Assembly (NCBI GenBank): GCA_019510335.1
Contig: JAEKKO010000039.1
Location: 1-34,207 of the forward strand
From: Novosphingobium sp.
Lineage (GTDB): Bacteria; Pseudomonadota; Alphaproteobacteria; Sphingomonadales; Sphingomonadaceae
Reading direction: 5' to 3'
Length of the DNA: 34,207 nt
In this document: piece after piece, positions 5,519 through 29,944 of the stretch
Layout: each line of letters begins with the position of its first letter
How positions within the stretch are numbered: the first letter of the stretch is position 1
Position numbers and translations under genes: made by a program
The notes under the pieces: generated by a model
What the model saw: the letters and a program-made list of their open reading frames with translations, nothing else
What the model was told of the DNA's origin: nothing
Databases searched by the model: none

Positions 5519-5524
5519 CGTCGG

Positions 5525-6277: not shown

Positions 6278-6323
6278 GAAAACTTAGTCCTCCCAAGCTT
6301 TTGAAATCGCGGACGCACGGCCC

Positions 6324-8671: not shown

Positions 8672-8694
8672 CGCAAGCGATCCCCCGCCTTCCC

Positions 8695-8730: not shown

Positions 8731-8746
8731 CGGGCCGGCGTAGTGT

Positions 8747-9961: not shown

Positions 9962-10319
9962 CGCCACATCTCCTCTGGGGCGCACCGGCGCCGCGAATCT
10001 GGTGTCGCGTGCATAATGCATTATCTTGCCGCGTCAAGTGCAGAGCGGCGGGTTGTTTGGTTCACGCCAAGACGCTAAGACGCGACGGCGGTGGTGGCGA
10101 AGGAGTTGCCCGCGGCAACGCGCGGCAAAACCTCGCGCATCCCTACCCATCCCTGTCATTCAGGCCAAAGCGGGGACCCATCACCGCGCCACGCCGCTTG
10201 GTGAGAGGTATGAAAATGAGTTCCCAATTTCGCGGGAATGACGCAGTTTTTTCTGACTTGGAAGCCGCAGCCCTAGCTAGCGGCGGCGAGCGCCAGCCCC
10301 TCGGCTCTCGCTCTTCCGC
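9962..10319. other. Intergenic region holding the operator and interspersed repeats
   Basis: No gene is visible in this 358-base gap. It holds the ATAATGCATTAT operator near its left end, a TTCACGC-type repeat end at about 10061-10090, and an inverted GTCATTC/GAATGAC pair at 10155-10242 of the GTCATTCCCGCG type common in sphingomonad intergenic DNA. The frames here are composed of repeat sequence. Confidence 0.6.
10013..10024. promoter_or_regulatory. Perfect palindrome ATAATGCATTAT (candidate GntR operator)
   Basis: This 12-base perfect palindrome is 52 bases upstream of the hydratase start that opens the minus run. Similar sites lie 25 bases before the CoA-transferase at 13860 and 53 bases before the hydratase at 14034. 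A GntR/FCD regulator gene sits between these units, making it the natural candidate ligand-controlled repressor. Confidence 0.6.
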
Positions 10320-10901: not shown

Positions 10902-10933
10902 GGCGGTAGCCTCTTGTGAGATAGTCAGGAGAA

Positions 10934-12636: not shown

Positions 12637-12642
12637 CTTGCG

Positions 12643-13860
12643 TCAGACCTTCTCGCGCACCGGGGCCCAGGCGAAGTCGGCTGGGCCGCCGGCCTTGACG
12701 GCGCCGCGCTCCTGCAGCGCCGCGCGTTCGGCCTCGCCGTAGCCGAGCTGAGCGAGCAGTTCGAGGGTGTGCTGCCCGATTTCGGGCGGGGGCAGATTCG
12801 GCTCAATTGCGGTCTGACCGGGGAACTCGGGGACGTCGAAATGCAGCCCGCGGTAGTCGAGCTCGCGCAGCTTTCCGGGCTGGCGGGCCTGCGGCTTGTC
12901 GAGCACCCGCTCGAGCGGCAGGACCTCGGTGAAGCCGACGCCGGCGGCGCGCAGCCGCGCCTCGATTTCATCGAAACTGAATTGGCCGACCGCGGCGCGC
13001 ACCGCCGCCTCGACCCGGTCGCGCTGCTTCTTGCGCTCGCGCAGCTTGGTGAGCTCGGGCGCGTTCGCCTCTGGCATGTCGAGCGCCTGGGCAAGCTTGG
13101 CCCAGTGGGCGTCGGTCAACACCAGCAGGTAGACCCAACGGTCGTCGCCGGTCAGGTACGAGCCGTAGCCGGGCATCGCGAACTCGCCGCCGGCCTCCTT
13201 CTCGGGCCGGCCGAGCAGCTGCGTCTTGAGCTGGACCCCAGCGAGATCGCGCGCGGCGAGGTGTAGGCCTGTCTCGTAGAGGCCGATCTCGATGGTGCGC
13301 TGCTCGGGGCTCGCAGCCGGATCTAGCATTGTCGCGAGGATCCGGATCACCGCGTAAGTGCCGGCGAACTGGTCGTGGTACGACGGCCCGAGGCGGCTCG
13401 GGCGGCCATCGATGCGGTGGTCGTCCATCACCCCCGTGGCGGCCTCGGCGACCGGGTTAGTGGCGAGGTCGTCGGCTTGCGGACCGTGGGCGTAGCCCTT
13501 GATGTGGCAATGGATCAGCGCGGGATTGACCGCGTGGCAGTCCTCGGCGGTGACCCCGAGCTTGCGCGCTGCCGACGGGGCGAGGTTGTGGATGACGACG
13601 TCGGCGGTGGCGGCGAGCTTGCGGAACACCTCCTTGCCCTCGGCTGTGGTGAGGTCGAGGCACAGCGCCTTTTTCGAATGGCTGTACGCGATCAGCGTTC
13701 CGCTCGGACCGCCGCGGACAAGCGCGCGGGTGGTGTCGCCCGAGGGCGGCTCGATCTTGATCACCTCCGCGCCAAGGTTGGCGAGGATGTGCGTGGCGAA
13801 CGGCGCGGCGACCATCGTGCCCAGTTCGATCACGCGGCGGCCGGCGAGAGGATGGCTCAT
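12643..13860 (-). CDS. CaiB/BaiF family III CoA-transferase
   Basis: The protein is 405 residues from ATG 13860 (MSHPLAGRRVIELGTMVAAPFATHILANLGAEVIKIE). A longer start at 13893 would place the initiator inside the operator palindrome and is not favoured. The catalytic Asp is in SYHDQFAGTYA. It is divergent from an itaconyl/mesaconyl-CoA hydratase-like gene. That pairing is known from itaconate and mesaconate catabolism, where a CoA-transferase activates the acid and the hydratase makes citramalyl-CoA. No lyase is present in the window, so the pathway call is tentative. Confidence 0.9.
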   Translation of the reverse strand: MSHPLAGRRVIELGTMVAAPFATHILANLGAEVIKIEPPSGDTTRALVRGGPSGTLIAYSHSKKALCLDLTTAEGKEVFRKLAATADVVIHNLAPSAARKLGVTAEDCHAVNPALIHCHIKGYAHGPQADDLATNPVAEAATGVMDDHRIDGRPSRLGPSYHDQFAGTYAVIRILATMLDPAASPEQRTIEIGLYETGLHLAARDLAGVQLKTQLLGRPEKEAGGEFAMPGYGSYLTGDDRWVYLLVLTDAHWAKLAQALDMPEANAPELTKLRERKKQRDRVEAAVRAAVGQFSFDEIEARLRAAGVGFTEVLPLERVLDKPQARQPGKLRELDYRGLHFDVPEFPGQTAIEPNLPPPEIGQHTLELLAQLGYGEAERAALQERGAVKAGGPADFAWAPVREKV

Positions 13861-13884
13861 GGGGCTCTTCGGTTCGGGAGAAGG

Positions 13885-13896
13885 ATAATGCATTCT
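13885..13896. promoter_or_regulatory. ATAATGCATTCT operator-like site before the CoA-transferase operon
   Basis: It is one mismatch from the perfect palindrome at 10013-10024 and lies 25 bases upstream of the CoA-transferase ATG at 13860. A regulator bound here would control the operon that contains the GntR gene itself (autoregulation). Confidence 0.5.
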
Positions 13897-13969
13897 ATAG
13901 CGCGCTGCGCGACCGCGGCAAGCCTCTGCAGCCGCAAAATCGAACTGCCGATGCGCTGTGCCTCAGGCG

Positions 13970-13981
13970 ATGATGCATTGT
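13970..13981. promoter_or_regulatory. ATGATGCATTGT operator-like site before the hydratase gene
   Basis: It differs from ATAATGCATTAT at two symmetric outer positions and keeps the ATGCAT core. It is 53 bases upstream of the plus-strand hydratase start at 14034, the same spacing as the perfect site has to the start at 9961. Confidence 0.5.
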
Positions 13982-14033
13982 TAGCAAGCCTCCAATCGGC
14001 TACGGGCGGGCCGAGCAGCATCGGGGACAGCGC

Positions 14034-14858
14034 ATGAGTGACGATTTTTCGGCCTGGGTCGGCAAGACCGAAACGCATGAGGACGTGCTCGAGCCGGCGC
14101 GGAGCAACGCCTTGCGCGCCGCGCTCGGCCAGACCGGCACGCTCGCGCCGGGCGATCCGCTGCCGCCCCTGCACCACTGGCTGTACTTCTGGGACGTTCG
14201 CCCACCCCACGGCCTCGGCGTCGACGGGCACCCGCAGCGTGGCGGGTTCCTCCCTCCGGTGCCGCTGCCGCGGCGGATGTGGGCCGGCGGACGGGTCAGC
14301 TTCGTCACGCCGCTGCGGCTCGGCGAGATGGCGACGCGGACCTCGACGATCCTCAAGGTCGAGGCCAAGAGCGGGCGCAGCGGCAACTTGGTTTTCGTCA
14401 CCGTCGAGCACCGCATCGCCGGCGAGCACGGCCTGGCGATCGTCGAGGAGCAGGACCTCGTCTACCGCGAGGCGGCAGCGGCGGGATCGATTGCAGCGCC
14501 CGCCGCCGGGCCGACTCCCGAGGCACCGTGGGTCGAGGCGGTCGAGCCCGACACCGTGCTGCTGTTCCGCTACTCGGCGCTGACCATGAACGGCCACCGC
14601 ATCCATTACGACCGGCCATATGCGATGGACGAGGAGGCCTACCCCGCCCTCGTCGTCCACGGGCCGCTGCAAGCGACGCTGCTCGCCGACCTCGCGGTGC
14701 GCAAGTTCGGCCGCCCGCTGGCGAGCTTCAGCTTTCGCGGTCAGGTGCCGGCGTTCGACGGCGTCACCCTGCACGTCTGCGGCGAGCCGGCCGACGCCGG
14801 TGCGAGCCTGTGGACCGAACAGGGCGGCGGCAAGAACATGGTCGCGACGGCGAAGTAG
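14034..14858 (+). CDS. Itaconyl-/mesaconyl-C4-CoA hydratase-like protein (COG3777 type)
   Basis: The protein is 274 residues. The N-terminal half shows GDPLPPLHHWLYFWDV, GGFLPPVPLPRRMWAGGR and RSGNLVFVTVEHRI. The C-terminal half shows FRYSALTMNGHRIHYDRPYA and VVHGPLQATLLADL, with the NGHRIHYD segment at the hydratase active site. This pattern is that of the HTD2/COG3777 hotdog hydratases, which include mesaconyl-C4-CoA hydratase and itaconyl-CoA hydratase. It is transcribed divergently from a CoA-transferase operon, with an operator-like palindrome in front of each. It probably hydrates a branched unsaturated acyl-CoA; the true substrate is inferred from family and context only. Confidence 0.85.
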   Translation: MSDDFSAWVGKTETHEDVLEPARSNALRAALGQTGTLAPGDPLPPLHHWLYFWDVRPPHGLGVDGHPQRGGFLPPVPLPRRMWAGGRVSFVTPLRLGEMATRTSTILKVEAKSGRSGNLVFVTVEHRIAGEHGLAIVEEQDLVYREAAAAGSIAAPAAGPTPEAPWVEAVEPDTVLLFRYSALTMNGHRIHYDRPYAMDEEAYPALVVHGPLQATLLADLAVRKFGRPLASFSFRGQVPAFDGVTLHVCGEPADAGASLWTEQGGGKNMVATAK

Positions 14859-14891
14859 CACCAAAGCTCAAGAATCAATCCACATCCCACG

Positions 14892-16331
14892 TCACCCTGA
14901 GCTTGTCTCACCGTTCCAGCCTTCAAGCTTCTTCGGCGCCCCCCGGCCTTCGAGCCAATCGGCAAGGTTGCGGTGGAGGTTGATGACCTTCTGCTCCTGG
15001 TGGGGGTTGGGGATCGTGCCGCGGAAGCCGCTCGACTTCATGCCCTTGTGGACGAACTCCATGTTGGAGAAGTCCTGCGCCAGCACGGAGCCCCAGTTCT
15101 CGCCGTTGGGCTCGGCGTAAACCCACTCGGTCTGCGGCTCCTGCCCTTCCGGAAAGCGCTCGAGCGCATAGCTTTCGAACACGCACTTGTTCGGGTCGTC
15201 GCCGTACGGGCGGACCCGGTAGCACAGCGCGAAGGTCTCGCCATGAAGGATGTTCTGGTTCGGCCACAGCCCCCAGGCGAGGCCGGCTTCCTGCTTGATC
15301 TCCGGCGGCACCTCGGGCCAGATCACTCCGCGCGCGGCGTCGTCGGCCTTGGCCGACTTGAGCCAGTGGGCGATGCACTCCTGCGGGGTCGCGGTTTCCG
15401 GCAGTTCGTCCTTCAAGCGGCTGGCGGCTTTGACCAGCGTCTCGGTCGAGGCCGAGTAGTTGACCGTCTCGTAGTTCTCGCGGATCAGCTCGTAGGTCGA
15501 CACGCGCGGGTCGTCGCCCTTTCCGGCGCGGGTCGTCCCCGAGCTTTCACTCATCTTGAACTTGGCGTCGCGGGTGTCGTAGCTCGATACCGAGTGCAGC
15601 CCATACTGGCGCGAGAGCGCGTAGTAGTCGCCGTAGGCGAGCAGCTGGGTATGCGTGCCGGCGACGTGGTAGGGCTCGAGGAACGCCTCGATCGCGACCT
15701 TCCAGTTGCACGGATAGATCGCCCACTGGCGCCACTTGTAGCGCATCTTATCGAGCTGGAAGTAGTCGAGGATCTCGCCGGCGCGGCCCATCCACTCCTT
15801 CAGCGAGCAGGCGTCGGGATCCATGTTGATGTAGATGTAGCCGCCCCAGGTATCGACCTGGACCGGCGTCAGGCAGGTCCGCTCGGGCGTGAGCGCGCCG
15901 TGCCAGTCCTGCGGATCGAGGATGTAGGTGTTGTTCCCGTCGAGATCGTAGGTCCAGCCGTGAAACGCGCAAATGAAGTTCTTGCGGTTGTTGCCGCGCA
16001 CGTCGTGGACTTTGCCGGGGAGATGATCGGGCACGGCGACGAGCTGACGGCCGCGGTGGGGGCATACGTTGTGGAACGCGCGGAGCGAGCCGTCGTCCTT
16101 GCGCAGCACGATGATCGACTCATCGGCGACGTTATAGGTCAGCCAGTCGCCGGGGTTGGGGATGTCGGTCTCGCGCTCCACCATCTGCCAGATCTTCGGC
16201 CACAGCAGCTTCTTCTCAGCGTCGAGGTATTCGCGCGAGAGGAACGCCTCGGTCCCGTACGTCACCGGCACTTCGGCAACCATGTCTTCGGGGGTGATGT
16301 TGTTGGCGGCGATCTTCGACAGCTCGTTCAC
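14892..16331 (-). CDS. Rieske non-heme iron aromatic ring-hydroxylating oxygenase, alpha subunit
   Basis: The protein is 479 residues from a GTG at 16331 preceded by GGGAGAG. The Rieske [2Fe-2S] ligands are C90 and H92 (VCPHRG) and C121 and H124 (CAFHGWTY). The gap between the two halves is 28 residues, longer than the usual 15-20. The catalytic iron ligands are H222 and H227 (EPYHVAGTH). The enzyme hydroxylates an aromatic or alicyclic ring and needs separate ferredoxin and reductase partners, none of which is in the window. It lies downstream of a Baeyer-Villiger monooxygenase on the same strand. The last residues and the stop codon are encoded by a CACCCTGA-type repeat, so the native C-terminus may have been altered. 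Confidence 0.92.
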   Translation of the reverse strand: MNELSKIAANNITPEDMVAEVPVTYGTEAFLSREYLDAEKKLLWPKIWQMVERETDIPNPGDWLTYNVADESIIVLRKDDGSLRAFHNVCPHRGRQLVAVPDHLPGKVHDVRGNNRKNFICAFHGWTYDLDGNNTYILDPQDWHGALTPERTCLTPVQVDTWGGYIYINMDPDACSLKEWMGRAGEILDYFQLDKMRYKWRQWAIYPCNWKVAIEAFLEPYHVAGTHTQLLAYGDYYALSRQYGLHSVSSYDTRDAKFKMSESSGTTRAGKGDDPRVSTYELIRENYETVNYSASTETLVKAASRLKDELPETATPQECIAHWLKSAKADDAARGVIWPEVPPEIKQEAGLAWGLWPNQNILHGETFALCYRVRPYGDDPNKCVFESYALERFPEGQEPQTEWVYAEPNGENWGSVLAQDFSNMEFVHKGMKSSGFRGTIPNPHQEQKVINLHRNLADWLEGRGAPKKLEGWNGETSSG

Positions 16332-16386
16332 GGATGCTCTCCCAGGCGTTTGGCGCGATGTAGCTCACGCCGCGGATCGAGGAAAC

Positions 16387-16410
16387 CGGCCGGGCGACGC
16401 CGCCCGGCCG
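16387..16410 (-). terminator. Strong hairpin between Baeyer-Villiger and Rieske genes
   Basis: CGGCCGGGCG (16387-16396) and CGCCCGGCCG (16401-16410) form a perfect 10-base-pair stem with a 4-base loop. On the minus strand it follows the monooxygenase stop by ten bases and is followed by GTTTCC. It may attenuate transcription into the Rieske gene or stabilise the upstream message. The T tract is weak, so full termination is uncertain. Confidence 0.5.
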
Positions 16411-16420
16411 ATCGATATCG

Positions 16421-18268
16421 TCAGGCCGGCACGGGTTCGTCGAGCCGCAGCCCTTCCATCTCGCCGTTGCTGCGCCACTCCTCCTGCATCTGCACCCAAT
16501 TGTCCCAGCCCAGGCCCCAGCCGCGGAACAGGAACCACTTGGCCTCCTTGTCGCCCTCGTTGGTGAAGTAGCTCGGGGTGCACTCGTTGAGGAAGATCGA
16601 GAGGTCGAGCGAGATTTCCTTGAACCGCTGCAGATAGGCGTCCTGCGCCTCCTGGGTCGGCTCGACGGCGGCGACGCCGCGGCGGAGCGCCTCGGCGATG
16701 ATCCACGACGCGTGGTGCGCCTGGGTCCCGAATTGCAGCGTGGTGGTGCCGTTGAGCCCGCCCTGGACGTAGCCGGTGTAGAACATGTTGGGGAAGTTGT
16801 GTGCCATCGTCCCCTGCCAGGTCTTCGGCCCGTCCCCCCAATACTCGTAGAGCGAGGTGCCGCCCCGGCCGACGACGTCCTCGAACCCCCAGCGCCGCCT
16901 AAGATCACTGGTGACCTCGAAGCCCGAGGCGAAGACCATGCAGTCGACCTCGTACTCCTGCCCTTGCGCGATGAAGCCGTTCTCGGTCATCGCCTCGAGA
17001 CCTTGCGTCAGCGAAACGTCGATCAGCTTGACGTTGGGCCGGTTGAAGGTGTCGTAATAGTCGTTGTTCGACAGCGGCCGCTTGCACATGAAGCGATAGT
17101 ACGGCTTCAGAGCCTCGGCCGTGGCGGGGTCCTCGATCAGCTCGTCGCAGCGGCGGCGGACCCGCTCCATGACGCGGAAGTCCATCTCCTCGCGACGCCG
17201 CATGAACTCTTCCATGCTGATCTCGGGCCAGCCTTCCTCCTCGAGCTCGGCGTTGATGTTGCGGTTGATCTCGGTCCAGAAGTCGCAGATCAGGTCCGGT
17301 GCGCCGCGCGGCAGGATCTCGTTGGCCGCGCGCAGGAAGTTTTCCTGCCGCCGCGCCTGCCAGCCGGGCGTCAGCGTCTTGACCCACTCGGGATCGGTCG
17401 GCGGGTTGGGCCGCTCGTCGACGCTCGATGGGGTGCGCTGAAGGATATAGAGCTGCTTGGCATACTTGCCGAGGTACGGCACCGCCTGGATCGCGGTGGC
17501 CCCGGTGCCGAGGATGGCGACGCGCTTGTCCTTGAGGTTGTCGAGGACCGGGTTGTCCCACTCGCCACCGGTGTACTCGTAGTCCCACCGCGAGGTGTGG
17601 AACTTGTGGCCCTTGAAGCTGTGGAGTCCGCGAATGTTCGGGAACTTCGGCGTGTTCAGCGTACCGCCAGCCATGATCACGAAGCGGGCGCGGATGTCGT
17701 CGCCGCGATCGCTGCTGATCCGCCAGCGCTTGATCGATTCGTCCCACTCGAGCCTGGTCACCTCGGTGTGCATCAGGCCCTTGTCGCGGAACCCGAACTT
17801 GTCGACGATCAGCTGGATGTAATCGAAGATCTCCTTGCCGTCGGAGAACTTCTTCGACGGCATCCACCCGGTCTCCTCGAGCAGCGGGAGATAACAGTAG
17901 GCGTCGTTGTCGCACTGGATGCCGGGGTAGCGGTTCCAGTACCAGGTGCCGCCGAAGTTGCCGGCATGGTCGATCATGCGGAAATTGGTCACCCCCGCGT
18001 TCGTCAGGTGATAGGCGGCGAGGATCCCGGTCCAGCCGGCGCCGAGCACGGCGACGTCGATGTCTTCGTCGAGCCCATCGCGCGGCACCACGGGCGTGAA
18101 CGGGTCATGCTCCTTGGTGTCGTGGGTCAAGTGGTCGGCCGGTGCCGCGTACTGCTCGCCGCCTTCGGGGCGCATCCGCTTGTCGCGTTCGTGGCGGTAC
18201 TTCTCGATCAGCGCCGGGATGTCGATTTCCTCCGGCGCGGGGATGTTTGTCTTCTTGCACTCGAACAT
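16421..18268 (-). CDS. Type I Baeyer-Villiger monooxygenase (FAD, NADPH)
   Basis: The protein is 615 residues from ATG 18268, with GGAG upstream. It has a 70-residue N-terminal extension, then the FAD motif GAGWTG (76-81), the Baeyer-Villiger fingerprint FKGHKFHTSRWD (218-229, matching FxGxxxHxxxWD), and the NADPH motif GTGATA (254-259). The length and the extension resemble the large cyclopentadecanone/steroid-type group of these enzymes. The reaction inserts oxygen next to a ketone to give an ester or lactone, in the cytosol. It is read with a Rieske oxygenase and is divergent from a transglutaminase-fold protein. An SMP-30 lactonase-like gene in the neighbouring run could open a lactone product; that link is inferred. 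Confidence 0.93.
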   Translation of the reverse strand: MFECKKTNIPAPEEIDIPALIEKYRHERDKRMRPEGGEQYAAPADHLTHDTKEHDPFTPVVPRDGLDEDIDVAVLGAGWTGILAAYHLTNAGVTNFRMIDHAGNFGGTWYWNRYPGIQCDNDAYCYLPLLEETGWMPSKKFSDGKEIFDYIQLIVDKFGFRDKGLMHTEVTRLEWDESIKRWRISSDRGDDIRARFVIMAGGTLNTPKFPNIRGLHSFKGHKFHTSRWDYEYTGGEWDNPVLDNLKDKRVAILGTGATAIQAVPYLGKYAKQLYILQRTPSSVDERPNPPTDPEWVKTLTPGWQARRQENFLRAANEILPRGAPDLICDFWTEINRNINAELEEEGWPEISMEEFMRRREEMDFRVMERVRRRCDELIEDPATAEALKPYYRFMCKRPLSNNDYYDTFNRPNVKLIDVSLTQGLEAMTENGFIAQGQEYEVDCMVFASGFEVTSDLRRRWGFEDVVGRGGTSLYEYWGDGPKTWQGTMAHNFPNMFYTGYVQGGLNGTTTLQFGTQAHHASWIIAEALRRGVAAVEPTQEAQDAYLQRFKEISLDLSIFLNECTPSYFTNEGDKEAKWFLFRGWGLGWDNWVQMQEEWRSNGEMEGLRLDEPVPA

Positions 18269-18299
18269 ATCATCTCCGGTGATTCGCTGGCGGTCGCGA

Positions 18300-18340
18300 C
18301 GAGATACCATACAACGCTGTTGATTAGTATCAAGGGGCGA
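18300..18340 (-). promoter_or_regulatory. Candidate promoter with palindrome for the monooxygenase gene
   Basis: On the minus strand TTGATA, a 16-base spacer and TATGGT resemble sigma-70 -35 and -10 boxes, ending about 35 bases before the monooxygenase start. The -35 box overlaps an inverted repeat, TTGAT-TAGT-ATCAA (18320-18333), which could be an operator. No regulator gene is adjacent. Confidence 0.35.
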
Positions 18341-18468
18341 GTTTGGCACTGAGTTACCCCTGAAAGCGGGTCCGCGTCCATCGCTCCCGCGTTTCCGCAC
18401 GGATGCGTTGCGGCCCCAGTCTTTGCCCGCTAACCGGGCGCTCAGCGGCAACAGACGGAGCATGAGCC

Positions 18469-19518
18469 ATGCAGCGACGGGACGTGATAAAGGCGGGTGC
18501 AACGCTGGCCGCGACGACCGCGATGCCGATCCGCGTCGCCGCGCTCGACCACCCGTCCATGCGGCAGTTTGAGGTGACCACTACGGTCGAGATCGCCGCG
18601 CCCGCAGCGGGGCTCCAGCTGTGGCTGCCGGTGTTCGGGTCCAACGCCGCCTATCAGAAACGGCTGGCCGCTGCCTGGGACGGCACCGGCTCGGGGCGGT
18701 TGCGGAGCGACGCGTCCGGAGCCGAGCTGCTCCACGTGCGCTGGAGCGATGGCGCGCAGCCGCAGCGGGTCACACTGGTGCAGCGCCTGGCGACTTGGGA
18801 GCGCACCCGGCCGGTCGCCAAGCCGGTCCTCGGCGGCGCCGAGCGCGCGCGCTGGACGGCTTCGACTGCGGCAATCCCCACCGATGGCATCGTCGCCGAA
18901 ACCGCCCAGCGGATCGTCGGCAGCGAGCGTGAGCCACGCGCGCGACTCGCCGCCCTTTACGATTGGGTGGCCGCCAACACCTGGCGCGATGCGGCGACGG
19001 CCGGCTGCGGCCGCGGCGAGGTCGCATCGATGCTCCGCTCGGGTCGGCTCGGTGGGAAGTGCGTCGACATCAGCCGCCTGCTCGTAGCCCTCGCGCGGGC
19101 CGTCGGCCTGCCGGCGCGCGACGTCTACGGCATTCGCCTCGCCCCGTCCAAGCTGTCGCCCTCGCTCGGCAAAGGCCCGGTGATCACCGGCGCGCAGCAC
19201 TGCCGTGCCGAAGTCTGGCTCGACGACGCCGGCTGGTTCGCGGTCGATCCGGCTGACGTGCGCAAGGCGATCCTCGAAGACAAGCTCGACCCCGCGGGCG
19301 CCGACGTCGCACGACTCAAGGCGCACCTGTTCGGCGCCTGGGAAGACAACTGGGGCGGCTACAACTCGGCGAGCGGGATCGCGCTGCCCGGTGCGATCAC
19401 GCCGGCGCGATTCGACTTCCTGATGTACCCTACGGCGATCGGCGCGAGCGGTTCGGCCGACTGCCTCGATCCCGCGCACTTCACCTACCGTATCGAGTCG
19501 CGCGAGATCATCGCCTGA
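18469..19518 (+). CDS. Exported transglutaminase-fold protein (probable Tat substrate)
   Basis: The protein is 349 residues. The N-terminus MQRRDVIKAGATLAATTAM has a twin-arginine start and a short hydrophobic stretch ending near VAA (residue 25), suggesting Tat export. The transglutaminase-like catalytic triad is visible as C198 (GGKCVDISRLL), H244 (GAQHCRAEVWL) and D260 (FAVDPADV). Bacterial members act as cysteine proteases, amidases or transamidating enzymes in the envelope. It is divergent from the Baeyer-Villiger gene, with 200 bases between. Its role in this cluster is unclear. A hairpin-like AGCGGCG/CGCCGCCGCT follows its stop. Confidence 0.8.
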   Translation: MQRRDVIKAGATLAATTAMPIRVAALDHPSMRQFEVTTTVEIAAPAAGLQLWLPVFGSNAAYQKRLAAAWDGTGSGRLRSDASGAELLHVRWSDGAQPQRVTLVQRLATWERTRPVAKPVLGGAERARWTASTAAIPTDGIVAETAQRIVGSEREPRARLAALYDWVAANTWRDAATAGCGRGEVASMLRSGRLGGKCVDISRLLVALARAVGLPARDVYGIRLAPSKLSPSLGKGPVITGAQHCRAEVWLDDAGWFAVDPADVRKAILEDKLDPAGADVARLKAHLFGAWEDNWGGYNSASGIALPGAITPARFDFLMYPTAIGASGSADCLDPAHFTYRIESREIIA

Positions 19519-19605
19519 GCGGCGCGTCTTGGCGCCGCCGCTTGGGGCTTGCGCGGTCCCGATCCCGGCGCGCATGATCGCCGCCGAGATCGAGAGGAGC
19601 ATGTC

Positions 19606-20121
19606 ATGAGCGATGAATCCGCCGCCGAAATCCGCGCCGAGCGCAAGGACTGGGTCGTCGAGCACCGTGAGATGTACCTCCGCTCCGGCGGGGCCAAAGG
19701 CCACATCATGGACATCACCGCGGTCGGCGGACGCAGCTTCGCCACCCATTGCATGATCAAGTACCGCGGAAGGAAGTCGGGCAAGATCTTCATCACCCCA
19801 CTTTGCTACGGCGACATCGGCGGGGAGGTGGTGATCGTCGGTAGCAAGGGCGGCGCCGACGAGCATCCGGAATGGTACCTCAACGTGCGCGAGATGGACC
19901 AGGTCGACTTCCAGGTCGCGACCCAGGCGTTCCGCGCCACCTGGCGCGAGCCGCAAGGCGCCGAGCGCGACAAGGTGTGGGCGTTCATGGTCGACTGCTT
20001 TCCGTTCTATGCCACCTACCAGGCCGGGACGAGCCGACAGATCCCGCTGGTGATGCTGAAGTCGGTCCAGGAGATCCCGGTGTTTCGCGAAGAGGACGCC
20101 ACCGGCACCCGCAAGTTCTGA
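19606..20121 (+). CDS. Nitroreductase/deazaflavin (FDOR, DUF385-like) family protein
   Basis: The protein is 171 residues from ATG 19606, with GAGAGGAG upstream; the frame opens earlier but the preceding 19 codons look non-coding. The segments GRKSGKIFITPLCYGDIGGEVVIVGSKGGADEHPEWYLNV are diagnostic of the split beta-barrel flavin/deazaflavin family typified by mycobacterial Ddn: K-SG...PL, GSxGG, HP.WY.N. Members bind F420 or other flavins and often reduce or activate small organics. F420 synthesis genes are not in the window, so cofactor identity is open. It follows the transglutaminase-fold gene by 87 bases on the same strand. Confidence 0.8.
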   Translation: MSDESAAEIRAERKDWVVEHREMYLRSGGAKGHIMDITAVGGRSFATHCMIKYRGRKSGKIFITPLCYGDIGGEVVIVGSKGGADEHPEWYLNVREMDQVDFQVATQAFRATWREPQGAERDKVWAFMVDCFPFYATYQAGTSRQIPLVMLKSVQEIPVFREEDATGTRKF

Positions 20122-22269: not shown

Positions 22270-23355
22270 TCAGCCGGGAACTGCGATGCGCGGGCTCCCC
22301 TGCTCCATCGTGCCGATCACCGCGGCCGCAGCGAAGCCGGATTCGCGCACCAGCGCAAGCACTTCTCGGGCGAACTCCGGCGCTACGGCGATAAGCAGCC
22401 CGCCGCTGGTCTGTGGGTCGCACAGCAGGTCGCGCTGCCATTCGGCGACTCCGAGGCCGAGCATCACCTCGTTGCCGTAGCTCGCCCAGTTGCGCACCGC
22501 GGCGCCGGTGCGGCATCCGGCCTGGGCAAGCGCGGCGACCCCCTCGAGGAGCGGCACTGCGCCCCACTCGAGCCGCGCCGCCAGCCCCGCGCCGCGGCCC
22601 ATCTCGAGGGCGTGGCCGAGCAGGCCGAAACCGGTGACGTCAGTCACGGCGTGGACCGCACCCAGTCCGGCCAGCGCCTCCCCAACTGCGTTGCGCTGGG
22701 TGGTCGCGGCGATCAGCGCCGCATAAGCCGCCTTCGCCGCCACGCCGTCGAGCTGACCCGACTTGAGCGCGGCGCTGATCACCCCGACGCCAAGCGGTTT
22801 GGTCAAGATCAGGCAGTCGCCGGGCTGGGCGCCGGAGTTGCGGAGGATGCGATCCGGGTGGACGAGGCCGATCACCGCCAGGCCGTAAATCGGCTCGGGA
22901 GCGTCGATCGAGTGCCCGCCGGCGACCGGGATGCCCGCTTCGGCGCAGACCGAGGCGCCCCCGGCGAGGATCGCGCCGACCGTCTCCGGGGCGATCTTGC
23001 CCAGCGGCATCCCGAGGATCGCCAGCGCCAGCAACGGCCGGGCGCCCATCGCGTAGACGTCCGACAACGCGTTGGTCGCGGCGATCCGGCCGAAGTCGGT
23101 GGGGTCGTCGACGATCGGCATGAAGAAGTCGGTGGTCGCGACCACCGCCTGGTCGTCGCTGATCCGGTAGACCGCGGCGTCGTCGCCGGTCTCGGTGCCG
23201 ACGAGCAGGTCGGGAAACGCCTGCATCGCCGGGAGCCCGCCGAGCAGCTCGCGCAGCACCGCCGGCGACAGCTTGCAGCCGCACCCACCGCCATGGGCGA
23301 GCGCGGTGAGGCGGACCGGGGCTTCCGGTGCGAGGACGTCGGCCGCGATGGTCAT
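22270..23355 (-). CDS. selD: Selenide, water dikinase (selenophosphate synthase)
   Basis: The protein is 361 residues from ATG 23355. It makes monoselenophosphate from selenide and ATP, the selenium donor for Sec-tRNA synthesis. The active-site loop [10 protein letters not shown] carries C25, C27 and K28, corresponding to the Cys-Gly-Cys-Lys loop with C17 and K20 of E. coli SelD; the position that is Sec in some homologues is Cys here. ATP-binding segments include GDDAAVYRI, the acidic [34 protein letters not shown] region and [18 protein letters not shown]. It is divergent from selA across a 431-base gap. It heads a minus run with the NHL and EthD-like genes. No strong ribosome-binding site is visible, and a small GGTAC hairpin precedes the start. 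Confidence 0.96.
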
Positions 23356-23786
23356 TGGCGAAAGGTACCGAAAGTACCGCCGAAACAGATATTCCCTCGA
23401 TCAGTCCGGGTGGGGTGATCGGAAAAGGCGATCGGCGGGAGGGCGGAGCTCGGCACGGCCGCCGCCATGTCACGGATGGGGGGCTGTAGGAAACATCGAA
23501 ATGGCGCGGGCGTTTGCGCGGGTGCTTCGACAGCTCGGCACGAGCGGATGTTTCTAGAGCGGGCGGGCGTCGCGCGAGTGGTTCGACGGGCTCACCTCGA
23601 GCGGGACTTGGGTTTTCAGGACACCTGCAGGAAACTCCGCAGCACCCCCCGAAACCCGCTCGTCCTGAGCCTGTCGAAGGACGCGCGCCCAGATTTCGAA
23701 TGCGATTTCGGTCGCTGGGTCGACGGCCGAGCTGCAAGGCTGATAAGGCGCGACCATGGGCTTCTCTCAAATCGCCGGGGCGCACG
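23356..23786. other. selD-selA divergent intergenic region
   Basis: No gene is supported in this 431-base gap. It contains an inverted GGTAC-CGAAA-GTACC (23364-23378) next to the selD start. It also holds three copies of an interspersed TTCGACAGGCTC-type repeat: 23526-23547 and 23582-23604 in one orientation and 23656-23678 in the other. Reading frames through it (one is continuous with selA) are repeat sequence and lack a family match. Promoters for both genes must lie here, but no convincing -35/-10 pair was found by eye. Confidence 0.6.
23526..23678. repeat. Three REP-like TTCGACAGGCTC repeats
   Basis: Copies at 23526-23547 and 23582-23604 start TTCGACAG or TTCGACGG and end CGAGCGG; the third, at 23656-23678, is in opposite orientation (CCGCTCGTCCTGAGCCTG then TCGAA). 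The third copy is an exact reverse complement of one at 29997-30019, beyond selC. These look like an alphaproteobacterial interspersed palindromic element and not a SECIS or operator. Confidence 0.55.
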
Positions 23787-25142
23787 ATGGCCGAGGGTGA
23801 CAACCTGCGGCGCCGATTGCCGCAAGTGCAGCGGCTGCTCGAGCTCTCCGGAGCGGCAGCGCTGGTTGCGAAGTATGGGCGCACCGCGCTCGTCGCTGCG
23901 CTGCGGGGGGAGCTCGAGGACGCCCGCTCCTACATTACGGCCGGCCGGATGACCGGCGCGCCCTCGCCCGAGGCAATCCTCGCCCGCGCCGGGGACGCGT
24001 TGCGCGCGCGCAGCCGCCCGGGCTTGCGCCAGGTAATCAACGCCAGCGGAATCGTGCTCCACACCAACCTCGGGCGTGCGCCGCTCGCCGCGGAGGCGAT
24101 CGCCGCGATCGCCGAAGTCGCGGCCGGCTACGCCAACCTCGAATTCGACCTCGCCAGCGGAACGCGCGGCTCGCGCACGGCGGCGATCGAGCCGCTGCTG
24201 CGCGAACTGACCGGCGCCGAAGCCGCGCTGGCGATCAATAACGGCGCGGCGGCGATCCTGCTTGCGCTGAGCGCGCTCGCCGGCGGCGGCGAGGTGATCG
24301 TGTCGCGCGGGGAATTGGTCGAGATCGGCGGGGGCTTCCGTATCCCCGACGTGATCCGTCAGGGCGGTGCTCGACTGGTCGAAGTCGGCTCGACCAACAA
24401 GACCCGCCTCGCCGACTACCGCGAGGCGATCGGCCCCGAGACCAAGGTCCTACTCAAGGTCCACCAAAGCAATTTTTGCACGATCGGCTTCACCGCCGAA
24501 GTCGGCATTGACGAGCTGGCTGGGCTGGCGCGCGAGCATGGGCTGCTGGTCGTCGCCGACCTCGGCAGCGGGGTGCTGCGGGAGGTGCCCGGCAGCGCCG
24601 AGCCAAGCGTCGGCGCCGCGCTCGCCGCGGGGGCCGACCTCGTCACCTGCAGTGGCGACAAGCTGCTCGGCGGACCGCAAGCCGGGCTGATCCTCGGCGG
24701 TTTGCGAGCGGTCGAGCCGCTGCGCCGGCACCCGCTGCTGCGCGCGGTGCGGCTCGACAAGCTCTCGCTTGCCGCGCTCGAGGCGACGCTGCGGCTGCAT
24801 CGCGACCGTCCCGAGGCGATCCCCGTGCTGCGGATGCTTGGGCAAACCGAAGCGGGACTGAACGCGCGGGCCGAGCGGCTGCGGGAGCTGGTTGGCGCGG
24901 GGATGATCGAGTCGAGCGAAGGCTTTGCCGGCGGCGGCTCGCTGCCCGAGCAACGGATCGCCAGTCGCGCGCTGGCGCTGCAGCCGGCGATGAGCGTCGA
25001 CGCGGCGGCCGCGACGCTGCGGACCGGTCCGAGCGCAGTCGTGGCACGGATTTCCGATGGGCGGCTGCTGCTCGACATGCTGGCGGTCGCCGATGACCAG
25101 CTGCCGGCGCTGGCGGAGGCGGCGCGGGCGGTGCTGGCGTGA
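23787..25142 (+). CDS. selA: L-seryl-tRNA(Sec) selenium transferase
   Basis: The protein is 451 residues from ATG 23787 (MAEGDNLRRRLPQVQRLLEL), chosen over upstream in-frame starts because the family begins at the RLPQVxRLL segment. It is a PLP enzyme that converts Ser-tRNA(Sec) to Sec-tRNA(Sec) using selenophosphate. Signature segments are INASGIVLHTNLGRAPL (84-100), NLEFDLASGTRGSR (117-130), VGSTNKTRLADY (200-211) and CSGDKLLGGPQAG (288-300), with the PLP lysine at K292 (K295 in E. coli). The length is close to the usual 460. Its stop overlaps the selB start (GTGA), so the two are translationally coupled. Confidence 0.97.
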   Translation: MAEGDNLRRRLPQVQRLLELSGAAALVAKYGRTALVAALRGELEDARSYITAGRMTGAPSPEAILARAGDALRARSRPGLRQVINASGIVLHTNLGRAPLAAEAIAAIAEVAAGYANLEFDLASGTRGSRTAAIEPLLRELTGAEAALAINNGAAAILLALSALAGGGEVIVSRGELVEIGGGFRIPDVIRQGGARLVEVGSTNKTRLADYREAIGPETKVLLKVHQSNFCTIGFTAEVGIDELAGLAREHGLLVVADLGSGVLREVPGSAEPSVGAALAAGADLVTCSGDKLLGGPQAGLILGGLRAVEPLRRHPLLRAVRLDKLSLAALEATLRLHRDRPEAIPVLRMLGQTEAGLNARAERLRELVGAGMIESSEGFAGGGSLPEQRIASRALALQPAMSVDAAAATLRTGPSAVVARISDGRLLLDMLAVADDQLPALAEAARAVLA

Positions 25143-27028
25143 AGCGCGTCGTCGTCGGCGTGATCGGCCACGTCGACCACGGCAAGACTGCGCTGGTCGC
25201 CGCGCTGACCGGGACCGATACCGATCGCCTGCCCGAGGAGAAGGCGCGCGGCATCTCGATCGCGCTCGGCTTTGCCCACCTCGCGCTGCCCGGCGGCGGC
25301 CACGTCGACTTGATCGACATGCCCGGGCACGAACGCTTCGTGCGAACGATGATCGCCGGAGCCACCGGGATCGACGCCGTGCTGCTGGTCGTCGCGGCGA
25401 ACGAAGGGGTGCGGCCGCAGACGAGCGAGCACGTCGACATCGCCGGACTGCTGGGGATCGGACGGGCGGTGGTGGCGGTGAGCAAAGCCGACCTGGTCCA
25501 GCCGGACCGGGCGGAAGCCGTCGCCGCCGAAGCGAGCGAGCTGCTCAGGGAAGCGCGCATCGAGCCGGTGCAGGCGATCGTCACGTCGGCTGCGGACGGT
25601 GCCGGTATTGCCGAGCTGCGTGCCGCGCTGGCTGGGTTGGCGGGGGCGACGGAGGCGGTGCCGGACACCGGCGTGCCGTTCCTGCCGATCGACCGGGCGT
25701 TCAGCATCGCCGGGCATGGACCAGTCGTGACGGGCACCTTGCGCGGAGGCGCCATCGCCACAGGCGACATGCTCGAGCTGTCGCCGGCAGGGCACCGGGT
25801 GCGGGTGCGAGGGCTGCAGGTCCACGGCGAGGCGGTGAGCAGCACGCCGCCGGGGCAACGCGTGGCCGTCAACGTCCGCGGGGTAGAGCACGGCGAGCTC
25901 GGCCGGGGCATGGCGCTGGCCGCGCCCGGAGCGCTGGCGCCCTCTCCGTGGCTCACCCTGTCGATCCGCGTCCCGGGCGGCGCGCCGCCGCTGCGCAATG
26001 GCCTGCACCTGCGGGCGCTGTTCGGCACGGCCGAGGCCGACGTCCGCCTGCGCCTGCTCGACCGCGACGAGCTCGCGCCGGGCGAGACGGGATTGGCCCA
26101 GCTGGCGTTTAGGGAACCGGTGGAAGTGCCCGCCGGCGAGCCGGTGATCCTGCGCATCGCCTCGCCGCCGCAGACCGTCGCCGGCGGGCGCGTGCTCGAG
26201 CCGGTGACCCGGCGGCTGCGGCGCCATTCGCCGGCGGTGCTGGCGCGGCTGGCGCGGCTGCGCGACCTTGCCCCAGGCGAAATGCTCGCCGCCGAGATCG
26301 CCCAGGCCGGGGCGGCCGGGACGACGCTGGTGGAACTCGCCCGGCTCGCCGCTCTCACGCCGGCGCGAGTTGGCTCGCTGGTGCAGGGGGCGCCGGTCGA
26401 GGTCACCCGCTCGGGCCTGGTGGTCGGGAAAGCCGCGCTCGAGGCGGTGATCGCGCGCATTCCGCGCCTGCTTGCCCGTGAAGCCGAAGGACTGCCGCTG
26501 GACGCGTTGCGAGGCGCGCTGCCGCGGGTCGGGCCGACGGTGCTCGACGAGGCCCTGGCGCGGCTGCTCGCCCGCCGCGCGATCGTCAAGCGCGGCAGCC
26601 GCTTCGCCATTCCGCGCCCGGTCGAGGACCGCGCCCGCGCCGATGGGGAGACCGCGATCGCCGCGCGGATTGCCGAGACGCTGCGAAGCGGCGGCCTCGC
26701 CCCGCCGACGCCGGCGCAGATCGTCACCGATCCCGCGGCCCGCCGCGCCGTCGACCAACTGCTCCGCGCCGGGACGCTGGTCCGCGCCGTCGATCGCGCC
26801 AAAGCCAAGGAAATCCTGTTCCACCGCGACGCCATCGCCGAGGCGCAATCCCGCCTCGCTCCGCTGCTCGACGGCGACGGCCCCGGGCTGCTGGTCACCG
26901 AGATCGCCGCCGCGCTCGGCATTTCGCGCAAGTACGCGATGCCGCTGCTCGACCACCTTGACACCACCCGCTTCACCCGCCGGGTCGGTGACCGACGCGT
27001 GCGGCATGCGACGACGCCGGTGCGATGA
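25139..27028 (+). CDS. selB: Selenocysteine-specific elongation factor SelB
   Basis: The protein is 629 residues from a GTG at 25139 that overlaps the selA stop. It brings Sec-tRNA(Sec) to the ribosome at UGA codons next to a SECIS hairpin. GTPase motifs are G1 GHVDHGKT (10-17), G3 DMPGHE (60-65) and G4 SKAD (115-118); RGISIALGFA (38-47) corresponds to the switch I region. Elongation-factor beta-barrel domains follow (about 175-370). The C-terminal 250 residues form the winged-helix repeats that bind the SECIS RNA (ending AAALGISRKYAMPLLDHLDTTRFTRRVGDRRV). The length matches the family (614 in E. coli). An extensive opposite-strand frame across selA and selB is a high-GC shadow. Confidence 0.97.
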   Translation: MKRVVVGVIGHVDHGKTALVAALTGTDTDRLPEEKARGISIALGFAHLALPGGGHVDLIDMPGHERFVRTMIAGATGIDAVLLVVAANEGVRPQTSEHVDIAGLLGIGRAVVAVSKADLVQPDRAEAVAAEASELLREARIEPVQAIVTSAADGAGIAELRAALAGLAGATEAVPDTGVPFLPIDRAFSIAGHGPVVTGTLRGGAIATGDMLELSPAGHRVRVRGLQVHGEAVSSTPPGQRVAVNVRGVEHGELGRGMALAAPGALAPSPWLTLSIRVPGGAPPLRNGLHLRALFGTAEADVRLRLLDRDELAPGETGLAQLAFREPVEVPAGEPVILRIASPPQTVAGGRVLEPVTRRLRRHSPAVLARLARLRDLAPGEMLAAEIAQAGAAGTTLVELARLAALTPARVGSLVQGAPVEVTRSGLVVGKAALEAVIARIPRLLAREAEGLPLDALRGALPRVGPTVLDEALARLLARRAIVKRGSRFAIPRPVEDRARADGETAIAARIAETLRSGGLAPPTPAQIVTDPAARRAVDQLLRAGTLVRAVDRAKAKEILFHRDAIAEAQSRLAPLLDGDGPGLLVTEIAAALGISRKYAMPLLDHLDTTRFTRRVGDRRVRHATTPVR

Positions 27029-27121
27029 AAGAGCGTACAATTGCGCCGCCCACCCCTCGACCGTCATGCTGAACTTGTTTAAGCGCCCATTTTTCCCCAC
27101 GGGCGGTCGTCTGTTGGGCGT

Positions 27122-28117
27122 GTGCAGGAGAAAACCACCTTGGTGAGGCCGCTCAAGAACCTGGCCGAAGTCGCGGTGATCGGCGGCGGCCTCGCAGGGC
27201 TGAGCGCGGCGCGCCAGGCGGCGCGGCTGGGCAAGCTGGTGACGCTGTTCGAAGGCAGCGGCCTCTACGGCGGGCTGGTCGCAACGGTCGGCGAGGTTTC
27301 GGGCTTGCCGTTCGGAGGAGAGCCTTCGGGGCAGGAGATCGCCATCGCCGCGCTTGAGGAGTGCCAGAAGGTCGGCGTGCGCGTGATCGAGGCCGGGGTC
27401 GCTCAAATCGGCCTTGGCGAGCAGCTGTCCCTGACCGATGACCTCGGCGAGTTTCACCAGCCCGACGCGGTGATCGTCGCCTCGGGCGCGTCGCTGCGCC
27501 GGCTCGGCGTGCCCGGCGAAGAGGAATTCCTCGGCCGCGGCGTCTCGCGCTGCGCCACCTGCGACGGCGGGTTCTACCGCGGCCGAGAGGTCGTGGTGAT
27601 CGGCGGCGGCGACAGCGCGGTGCACGAGGCGCTGGTGCTGGCGCGGACCAGCGGCCAGGTGACGGTGGTCTCGCGCAGCCCGCTCAGCGCCCAGCGCGAG
27701 TACATCGACAAGCTCGACGCGCGCGAGAACGTGCGCTTCGTGTGGGGCAGCGAGGTCACCGCGATCGTCGGAGAGAATGGCGTCTCCGGCGTGCGCCTCC
27801 GCAATCGCAACGACGGCAGCGAGAGCGAGCTGGCCTGTTCGGGCGTGTTCCCGTTCATCGGCCTCGAGCCCAACACCCGCTTCCTCCCGCCCACGCTGCT
27901 CGATGCCGACGGGCTGGTGCGGACCAACGCCGACTTCGCCTCGGCCGACCCGCGGGTGTTCACCGTCGGCGCGGCGCGGGCCAATTATGGTGGCCATCTG
28001 ATCCAGGCGATGGCAGAAGGCGTGGGCGCGGCGATGGCCGCGGCCCGCCTGTTCAAGCCTGGCCCGAACGAACACGAGCAAGGAATTCGCCATGCCAAGA
28101 AAATCGTCGCCCACTGA
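27122..28117 (+). CDS. Thioredoxin-reductase-like NAD(P)H/FAD oxidoreductase
   Basis: The protein is 331 residues. The FAD motif is GGGLAGLSAA (21-30), the redox motif is RCATCDGG (C144, C147) and the NAD(P)H motif is GGGDSAVHEA (161-170), followed by VFTVGAARANYGGHLIQAMAEG for the FAD C-terminal contact. The domain order is that of bacterial thioredoxin reductase. The start is a GTG at 27122; a TTG at 27140 with GGAG nine bases upstream is an alternative. Its end overlaps the selenoprotein start by 26 bases. Thioredoxin reductases pass electrons to CxxC partners, so it is a plausible electron donor to the adjacent Cys/Sec-rich UGSC centre. No thioredoxin gene is adjacent. Confidence 0.9.
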   Translation: MQEKTTLVRPLKNLAEVAVIGGGLAGLSAARQAARLGKLVTLFEGSGLYGGLVATVGEVSGLPFGGEPSGQEIAIAALEECQKVGVRVIEAGVAQIGLGEQLSLTDDLGEFHQPDAVIVASGASLRRLGVPGEEEFLGRGVSRCATCDGGFYRGREVVVIGGGDSAVHEALVLARTSGQVTVVSRSPLSAQREYIDKLDARENVRFVWGSEVTAIVGENGVSGVRLRNRNDGSESELACSGVFPFIGLEPNTRFLPPTLLDADGLVRTNADFASADPRVFTVGAARANYGGHLIQAMAEGVGAAMAAARLFKPGPNEHEQGIRHAKKIVAH

Positions 28118-29837
28118 CGGCCAATACCAGGTCGTCTGGCCGGTGGCCGAGCGGCGGCTCAAGGTCCGCCCGCTCGCCAAGCGGCTCGACAGCCTCAAGG
28201 GCAAGACCGTCGCTCAGCTGTGGGACTACCTGTTCGCCGGCGACGTCGTGTGCAGCGCGATTGAGGACAAGCTGCGCGACGAATACCCCGACGTGAAGTG
28301 GGTCAGCTGGCGCGAGTTCGGCTCGACCCACGCGATCAACGAGAAGGAGCTGCTGGCCTCGCTGCCGCAGCGCTTCAAGGAACTGGGAGTGGATGCAGCA
28401 ATCAGCTGCATGGCCTGCTGAGGCAGTTGTACGCCCGCCGTGCTGCGGGCCAGTGAAGTTTGCGAACGCGCGGGGTTCCCGACCTCGTCGCTGGTCTGCG
28501 AGGGCTTCCTCGGCCAGGCCGCGGCGACGGCGGTCGGCCTCGGCATGCCGAATCTCCCGGTGGCGACGATCGTCGGCCACCCGGGCGCGCAAAGCGAGGA
28601 CGAGATCGCCCGCTTCGCCGCCGAGGTGACCGCGGCGCAAGTTGTCGAGAACCTGACCCGCCAGCCCGACGTCATCGAGCTCGGCGACGAGCCGGGCTCC
28701 CGCGACATCGTGTTCAGCGGCAGCTTCGAGGAGGTCAACGAGCACTTTGCCGCGCAGGAGTGGAGCGACGGCTTGCCGATCGTCCCGCCGACGCTGGAGA
28801 AGATCGCGGAATTCCTCGCCTTCACCGACCGCGACCCGAACGAATCGCTCGGCATCGTCCTGCCCGCCAGTCGCGCGGTGACGATCTGGTCGATCGCGGT
28901 GAACGGAGTAATGGCCGGGTGCCGGCCCGAGTACATGCCGATCCTCGTCGCCCTCGGCGAGGCGATGGCCGACCCGTTCTACGGCGTCGAGCACTCCGGC
29001 AACACACCCGGCGCCGAGACCCTGATCGTGCTCAACGGGCCGATCATCAAGGAGCTGAAGTTCAACTTCGAGCAGGGCGTGCTGCGCGACGGATTCCGCC
29101 CCAACACCTCGGTCGGCCGGTTCTGGCGGCTGGCGCTGCGCAACATCGCCGGATTCCTCCCGCACAAGACCGACAAGGGCACCTTCGGCAACACCTTCCG
29201 CGTGGTCCTCGCCGAGAACGAGGACTCGCTGGCCAAGATCGGCTGGCCGCCCAACAGCGCCGACATGGGCTTCGCCGCGGGCGACAACACCGTGACCATC
29301 ACGCGCCTGACCGGCGGCGGGGTGTTCCCCTCGGTCACCGGCAGCAGGCCCGAGCAGATGATGCCGTACATCGCCGACGCGGTGGCCGCGCAGACCGGGT
29401 GGGAGATCGTCTTCACCGTCGGCGGGCTGACGTATGGCACATTGCGGCCGCTGCTGATCCTCACTCCGATCCTCGCCGAGACCATCGCCAAGGCCGGGTG
29501 GAGCAAGGGCGACGTCAAGCGCTACTTGTTCGACCACGCCCGCATGGCCGCGTGGCGGGTCGAGAAGTTCACCGAGGAATGGGCCGACTTCCCGATCGGC
29601 TCGCTCAAGCACCAGGTCAATATCGGCAAGCTCCCCCCGGTCTTCGCCGAGAGCGACGATCCGAACCGCATGGTGCCGATCGTGATGGAGCCGGACGATT
29701 TCATGGTCCTGATCTCGGGCGACCCTCTGCGCACCAACGCCTACACGTTCACGCAGAACGGCTACCTGGGCTTCCCGACAGCGAAGAAGATCGAGCTGCC
29801 GAAGAATTGGGCGAAGCGGGTGAAGGCGGCAGGCTGA
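28092..29837 (+). CDS. UGSC-family selenoprotein, two domains, Sec at codon 110 (in-frame TGA 28419-28421)
   Basis: Reading the TGA at 28419-28421 as Sec joins two same-phase frames (28092-28421 and 28422-29837) into a 581-residue protein. Start ATG 28092 has AAGGA eight bases upstream. The junction reads CMAC-U-GSC: C106, C109, U110, C113, a dense redox centre containing the UGSC motif that names this uncharacterised family. Residues 1-200 form the UGSC domain. A second domain begins near 210 (FEEVNEHFAAQEWSDGLPIVPPT) and continues through VMAGCRPEYMPILVALGEAM and GFRPNTSVGRFWRLALRNIAGF. This DGLPIVPPT-type domain is found in uncharacterised bacterial proteins, and I know no function for it. 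A hairpin 11 bases after the UGA (28433-28450) fits a bacterial SECIS. selA, selB, selD and tRNA-Sec are adjacent. Standard gene callers would split it. Confidence 0.93.
28419..28450 (+). promoter_or_regulatory. UGA codon and candidate bacterial SECIS hairpin
   Basis: The TGA at 28419-28421 is followed by GCCCGC (28433-28438), a six-base loop CGTGCT, and GCGGGC (28445-28450). The stem is a perfect 6 base pairs. Seventeen bases separate the UGA from the loop, within the 16-37 range known for bacterial SECIS elements. A G is the second loop base, and the loop contains GU as in known examples. Confidence 0.8.
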
Positions 29838-29851
29838 AGCGGAGCCGCCAT

Positions 29852-29944
29852 TGGCGGAAGCGGATGGGAATCGAACCCACCGCCCGCTGTTCGCGGGCCG
29901 CTGGTTTTGAAGACCAGGGAGGCCACCAGGCCCCAATCGCTTCC
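29852..29944 (-). tRNA. selC: tRNA-Sec (anticodon UCA)
   Basis: On the minus strand the sequence begins GGAAGCGATTGGGG and ends GATTCCCATCCGCTTCCGCCA, with the 3' CCA encoded. The first seven bases pair with CGCTTCC at the 3' end. The anticodon stem CTGGT..ACCAG encloses CTTCAAA, so the anticodon is TCA, which reads UGA. A long variable arm (CCCGC-GAACA-GCGGG) and a T arm with TTCGATT are present. The total length of 93 bases, the GGAAG start and the long extra arm are those of bacterial tRNA-Sec. It lies 14 bases after the selenoprotein stop, on the opposite strand. Confidence 0.95.

Follow-up and report, generated by a model that had tools for sequence, protein, structure and literature searches.

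Positions 22270–29944 of a 34,207-nt Novosphingobium sp. stretch (contig JAEKKO010000039.1, hereafter the window) hold a plus-strand frame of 581 codons, the genes selD, selA, selB and tRNA-Sec for selenocysteine (Sec) synthesis and insertion, and a thioredoxin-reductase (TrxR)-like gene that overlaps the start of the 581-codon frame (Table 1). The source, a metagenome-assembled genome (MAG), is 81% complete and comprises 395 contigs with 3.03 Mb in all. The sole interruption of the long frame is an in-frame TGA, and its translation (MPRK...SCMAC-TGA-GSCTPAVL...KAAG-stop) places this codon in the context Cys-Met-Ala-Cys-TGA-Gly-Ser-Cys. Direct reading thus upheld the original prediction, which had proposed one 581-residue protein of the UGSC family with Sec at codon 110 and had warned that standard annotation would report a 109-residue product and a second one starting at a GTG. 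The mechanical list of open reading frames (ORFs) shows exactly this split, into 28092–28421 (109 aa) and 28440–29837 (465 aa, GTG start). An AAGGA that we take to be a Shine–Dalgarno-like site lies 7 bases 5′ of the ATG, and inspection of the sequence 5′ of GTG 28440 found no such site there.

Table 1 Features of the UGSC locus and the evidence for each.
Feature	Position in window	Strand	Basis
UGSC gene, predicted selenoprotein; TGA codon 110 predicted to be Sec	28092..29837	+	ORF reading, PF24696, relatives' TGA
AAGGA, presumed Shine–Dalgarno-like site	28080..28084	+	sequence
TGA codon, predicted Sec110	28419..28421	+	conserved TGA, Cys forms
SECIS-like hairpin: stem 28433–28438/28445–28450, loop 28439–28444 (CGTGCT)	28433..28450	+	comparative constraint, fold
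UGSC domain, residues 14–189	28131..28658	+	PF24696; Rossmann-like in model; hhalign to GrdB/PrdB
C-terminal domain, residues 199–581	28686..29834	+	profile and homologue searches
TrxR-like flavoprotein, CATC motif	27122..28117	+	TIGR01292, neighbourhood
selB	25139..27028	+	TIGR00475 305.4 bits, cut-off 242
selA	23514..25142	+	TIGR00474 504.7 bits
selD, Cys type (GGCGCK)	22270..23355	-	TIGR00476 422 bits, NF002098 490 bits
tRNA-Sec, anticodon TCA	29852..29944	-	ARAGORN; RF01852 77.7 bits

The TGA is conserved. We compared the best 80 of 555 confirmed related loci, which are those closest to the query and under-sample distant Cys forms; one (L108) was frameshifted and dropped, and in 79/79 readable loci codon 110 is TGA, within UGSC, UGAC, UGGC or UGNC. 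By record title, which served as a label only, these loci belong to Alpha-, Beta- and Gammaproteobacteria, Actinomycetota, Chloroflexi, Nitrospinota, Rokubacteria, Acidobacteria and Clostridia; nine of them (L032, L036, L037, L039, L048, L082, L095, L102 and L106) are titled Bordetella parapertussis, and their bins look environmental. Cultured carriers among the loci include Xanthobacter aminoxidans ATCC BAA-299 (L035), Steroidobacter agaridevorans (L058) and Vineibacter terrae (L096). Five Cys forms, P0014 (65% identical) and four from three selA-less relatives (G095, G016 and G012), have Cys in the same column. Alignment of homologues across the TGA, the check on which the original prediction had staked itself, therefore showed the column occupied by a Sec codon or by Cys. 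Across 55 aligned members C/U110, G111 and C113 are invariant, so that the motif opens with Sec or Cys and has Cys three residues later, as in the UGSC family. Relative to locus L010, differences in the first half of the gene number 21/18/43 at codon positions 1/2/3, and this concentration at the third position marks the first half as evolving under coding constraint. A third-position excess was found on both sides of the TGA against 11 relatives, less clearly for the first half in L045 and L035, the two most distant of them. Named relatives (L064 and P0079, Sphingomonadales; P0137, Novosphingobium) make it likely that the genus is a sphingomonad, but a Steroidobacter copy is equally close to the window gene (82%), which suggests gene transfer; all 24 matching records of a plasmid search fell below 60% identity, so there was no sign of a plasmid-borne cassette among them.

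Just 3′ of the TGA the gene can form the hairpin GCCCGC/CGTGCT/GCGGGC, resembling a selenocysteine insertion sequence (SECIS). We compared it in 85 genes (the 79 loci, the window and five genus relatives): the six-pair stem is complete in 71 and retains five pairs in 11, and the loop reads CGTGTT in 58 and, as in the window, CGTGCT in 5. The strongest silent-site bias in the region falls on the stem and loop codons, with CCC for Pro in 79/82 (background 0.31), GTG for Val in 76/83 (0.50), TTG for Leu in 59/64 (0.12) and CGG for Arg in 80/85 (0.24), although the shared ancestry of the 85 genes makes the p-values too small. No significant silent-site excess was found in these genes at codons +1, +3, +10, +13, +14, +16, -2, -4 and -6. 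The mean folding z-score over the 85 genes was -0.89, compared with -0.16 in 339 control stretches. The predicted hairpin is thus present, and comparison across the genes, not folding energy, indicates that it is held at silent sites by selection.

Complete Sec machinery next to the gene, also noted in the original prediction, was recovered by profile searches and ARAGORN. The selA family match covers 23811–25121 and begins at residue 100 of the annotated frame, which probably places the real start near 23811. In a sample of 98 genomes, the source genome included, the TGA gene occurs in seven, all among the eight with selA above the cut-off, and in none of the 90 others, five of which encode relatives of one domain or of both, none with the TGA. 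The eighth selA genome (G041) is 64% complete and gave no UGSC match. All eight, to which this search was limited, have a tRNA-Sec scoring at least 66.8 bits. A single TGA-bearing UGSC domain occurs in each of the seven TGA genomes, and in three of them it is accompanied by one that lacks the TGA. None of the 32 molybdopterin-oxidoreductase (PF00384) matches in the eight selA genomes, searched for FdhA-type selenoproteins, carries a TGA, and the UGSC gene is for this reason predicted to be the main client of the genus's Sec genes among the two families tested. According to PMC4741004 (2016), selenoproteins are absent from every sphingomonad sequenced, a statement revised by what is likely a sphingomonad genus with eight selA-bearing genomes. 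Elsewhere in the source genome, outside the window, another UGSC domain gene (G000:C69:307–795, minus strand), this one lacking TGA, adjoins a C-terminal-domain gene fragment at a contig end; the pair likely represents the fusion in two-gene form. Two further genomes, G101 (of L058, Steroidobacter) and G104 (of L035, Xanthobacter), each have two selB matches above the cut-off, one of which in G104 adjoins a TGA-bearing UGSC domain.

A conserved in-frame TGA with Cys homologues, a SECIS-like hairpin just downstream, and selA, selB, selD and tRNA-Sec in the same genome are what is expected of a bacterial selenoprotein, and the split-looking gene is very likely one selenium-containing enzyme. Were the TGA a true stop, the locus would encode two proteins, of 109 residues and of 465 residues from GTG 28440. 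Mechanical ORF calling yields that division, and among the 120 best database proteins listed, which include the window's own, 119 have lengths of 448–470 aa. Only one of the 120 spans the Sec codon, which we read as a sign that close copies are commonly truncated in databases. A stop is hard to reconcile, however, with a UGSC domain that runs across the TGA, with Cys forms that carry Cys in its place, with a GTG that lacks a ribosome site 5′ of it and itself sits inside the hairpin loop, and with TGA in all the readable loci; we consider two separate proteins very improbable. The single, incomplete MAG might also raise the suspicion of a sequencing error or pseudogene mutation, but this is refuted already by the identical codon at all 79 loci and in six genus relatives, and coding constraint on both halves makes it scarcely credible.

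The protein matches the UGSC family profile PF24696 with 96.4 bits over residues 14–189 (gathering cut-off 25), as do 55/55 aligned members; it scores 43.8 bits against NCBIfam NF041046, below the equivalog cut-off of 125. In hhalign comparisons the UGSC profile aligned to three proteins of the glycine reductase selenoprotein GrdB with probability 93.2 and score 54.8, where the highest of 40 controls with permuted columns scored 20.3, and the whole-protein profile to GrdB with probability 89.5. Single GrdBs gave probabilities of 84.6–94.4 and scores of 44.9–57.1, the highest decoy outside the paralogue cluster reaching 23.4, and a PrdB-like protein gave probability 92.5 with Sec aligned on Sec. 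Sec110 and Cys113 align with the UGTC of GrdB and PrdB. These profile alignments indicate homology between the UGSC domain and the Sec domain of GrdB/PrdB, the selenium proteins of glycine and D-proline reductase with which anaerobes split amino acids. The structural model of the domain (predicted local distance difference test score, pLDDT, 93) looks Rossmann-like, and the listed structural rows are PurE, short-chain dehydrogenase/reductase (SDR) and sugar-binding folds; a thioredoxin fold is absent among the matches listed, an absence that excludes nothing. Foldseek with the whole model returned no match at E ≤ 0.001, and PDB sequence searches returned nothing convincing. PMC2398784 (2008) describes the UGSC family as one of the main selenoproteins of the Global Ocean Sampling (GOS) data, proposes a thioredoxin (Trx)-like fold for it and names a UGSC/Unknown_1 fusion; Unknown_1 is likely the C-terminal domain described here. 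UGSC proteins are also listed in a 2026 review. No mention of a relationship to GrdB/PrdB was found in the published passages on UGSC proteins that we examined. Our Sec reading therefore adds a member to a family described in 2008, and what goes beyond that description is the GrdB/PrdB homology together with the TrxR-like partner and the main-client pattern. The original prediction had included neither the homology nor the partner, the separate C-terminal domain or the family's place in the selenoprotein literature. Through the homology, the UGSC protein acquires a chemistry that can be tested and a candidate for its reductase.

The C-terminal domain matched no Pfam or NCBIfam family. Its relatives also exist as separate genes, and all names shown among 120 listed proteins for the stand-alone domain are 'hypothetical protein'. 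Class I fumarase was its best Foldseek family (E 3.6e-4, probability 0.77), a match too weak for us to adopt as an assignment.

The TrxR-like protein scores 219.5 bits against TIGR01292, under the cut-off of 343. Its gene adjoins the UGSC gene in 7/7 TGA genomes; the order selA-selB-TrxR-like-UGSC is kept in G010, G026, G053 and G056, and in G013 and G043, where selA lies elsewhere, TrxR-like and UGSC genes are still together, which argues for a functional partner. On this pairing, the flavoprotein is likely the reductase of the UGSC protein. We also surveyed neighbours within 3 kb at 80 loci (the 79 and the window). A TrxR-like gene occurs in 17 loci and a stand-alone or second C-terminal-domain gene in 26, with the order UGSC fusion, C-domain gene, TrxR-like gene in nine. 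By our own reading of the sequences, not family searches, TctC-type binding proteins occur in 22 loci, coenzyme A (CoA)-transferase-like proteins in five and MmgE/PrpD in four. TctC genes are common in Betaproteobacteria, so their link to the UGSC gene is weak; together, the linked tripartite carboxylate transporter binding proteins, MmgE/PrpD and CoA-transferases suggest small carboxylic acids as substrates. In the window itself, positions 1140–19956, on the minus strand as scanned, encode PrpF, CoA-transferases, a Rieske oxygenase, a flavin adenine dinucleotide (FAD) oxidoreductase, an aldo/keto reductase and SMP-30; these genes look catabolic, and similar ones occur on Sphingobium plasmids.

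According to PMC3091704 and PMC10298544, the presumed first step in the glycine and proline systems is an attack by the GrdB/PrdB Sec on the alpha carbon of the substrate, after which a thiol cleaves the selenoether and the resulting Se–S bridge is reduced, in the glycine system by NADPH via thioredoxin reductase and thioredoxin. We propose that SelB with Sec-tRNA decodes the TGA at codon 110 and that Sec110, which in the model lies between a strand and a helix, would act as a nucleophile on a small substrate. Cys113 would cleave the covalent adduct, leaving a Se–S bridge that the TrxR-like flavoprotein could reduce with NAD(P)H, directly or via thioredoxin, and the C-terminal domain would bind and activate the substrate in the role of the PrdA/GrdE pyruvoyl subunit. 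The parts fit glycine/proline chemistry: a nucleophilic Sec110, a resolving Cys113, an adjoining reductase and a large second domain. We assign a probability of roughly 0.65 to this reading as a whole, in which one gene, with its TGA read as Sec, encodes a two-domain enzyme that works by selenolate attack on a small substrate and is re-reduced by the TrxR-like protein.

Several observations count against it. Silent-site bias is also found outside the stem, at codons -5, -1, +11, +12 and +15, with TGT at -1 in 38/56 Cys (background 0.16), TCC at -5 in 42/72 Ser (0.17) and AGT at +11 in 30/70 Ser (0.08); the corresponding window codons are TGC at -1 and AGC at -5. The window hairpin is ordinary in energy (z -0.30, and z +0.94 against synonymous shuffles), values that make single-sequence folding energy uninformative as a SECIS test, and scoring by SECIS models, which the original prediction had recommended, did not bear it out: no Rfam SECIS model matches 28380–28500. 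The part homologous to GrdB/PrdB is short, with 43–113 aligned columns, and PF07355 (GRDB) is matched by 0/55 members (21 families matched, E up to 5), a search in which HMMER filters drop weak matches and a model that appears to end near the Sec covers little of the shared part. The 3-kb survey showed no TrxR-like gene at 63 of the 80 loci, some of which are cut by contig ends. We rejected the C-terminal domain as a GrdE/PrdA relative (hhalign score 19.0, against 40 permuted controls reaching 22.5); a pyruvoyl group is thus not supported, and substrate activation must therefore differ from that in the glycine and proline systems. A selenoprotein might instead be a general thiol or peroxide oxidoreductase, its Sec/Cys pair cycling between selenol and Se–S bridge with no carbon adduct. 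The UxxC motif and TrxR-like neighbour would suit any thiol redox enzyme, the Trx-like fold proposed in 2008 would agree with it, and the reference list of PMC3091704 includes a title on a peroxidase activity of GrdB itself; we hold this to be unlikely, yet worth keeping in view. More doubtful still is a catalytic C-terminal domain, for example hydro-lyase-like, with a Sec domain that keeps a metal or thiol site reduced, an arrangement to which the fumarase match and a Cys277 invariant in 55 aligned proteins would lend themselves.

A side observation concerns a MAG titled Chloroflexi (G105, JACPQD01), the genome of loci L087 and L099; L080, L081, L085 and L103 have the same prefix. A UGSC search of G105 that scored 150 of 208 candidates listed 141 matches, among which 137 domains have the in-frame TGA and 4 do not. 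In 374 kb of it chosen for hits (L130–L149), UGSC domains number 83, and 80 of them carry the TGA at UGxC, each followed by distinct sequence; 2 to 6 lie in each 11–20 kb stretch. Both selA and selB are on contig C84; no tRNA-Sec was found among the scored candidates of the genome, the best of which (43.1 bits, cut-off 47) is a tRNA-Ser, or in the ~71 kb read of the 73 kb of C84. The selA/selB contig also has a sub-threshold Rfam SECIS_3 match (L157:9127–9185, 39.9 bits, cut-off 63), perhaps a further selenoprotein. The upper bound newly set by the 2026 review is 63 selenoprotein genes for a single MAG, a figure that it qualifies with a caveat about co-assembly; the G105 count, to be set against this maximum, carries the same caveat of co-assembled strains. 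We tentatively suggest, as a possibility that we rate somewhat below even, that UGSC proteins are a large overlooked class combining a GrdB/PrdB-type Sec domain with exchangeable substrate domains and their own TrxR-like partner. They would carry Stickland-type selenoether chemistry from amino-acid-fermenting anaerobes into general carboxylate catabolism, act as the main client sustaining the Sec trait in a sphingomonad genus and, in a groundwater Chloroflexi, be amplified to the largest bacterial selenoproteome yet seen.

Among known systems, the UGSC family (PF24696; NF041046; the GOS 'UGSC-containing protein') has the motif and domain in common with the window protein, which falls below the NF041046 equivalog cut-off and bears an extra domain of 383 residues. 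The neighbouring gene product is, like thioredoxin reductase (TIGR01292), a flavoprotein with a CxxC (CATC), but its score below the family cut-off marks it as divergent and likely a dedicated relative. With GrdB/PrdB the window protein shares a homologous Sec domain in which the Sec-containing UGxC aligns on its UGSC, and, according to PMC3091704, the glycine system also draws its reductant from thioredoxin reductase, as proposed here. Unlike GrdB/PrdB, the window protein has no match to GRDB (PF07355), and its second part shows no relation to the pyruvoyl proprotein GrdE/PrdA.
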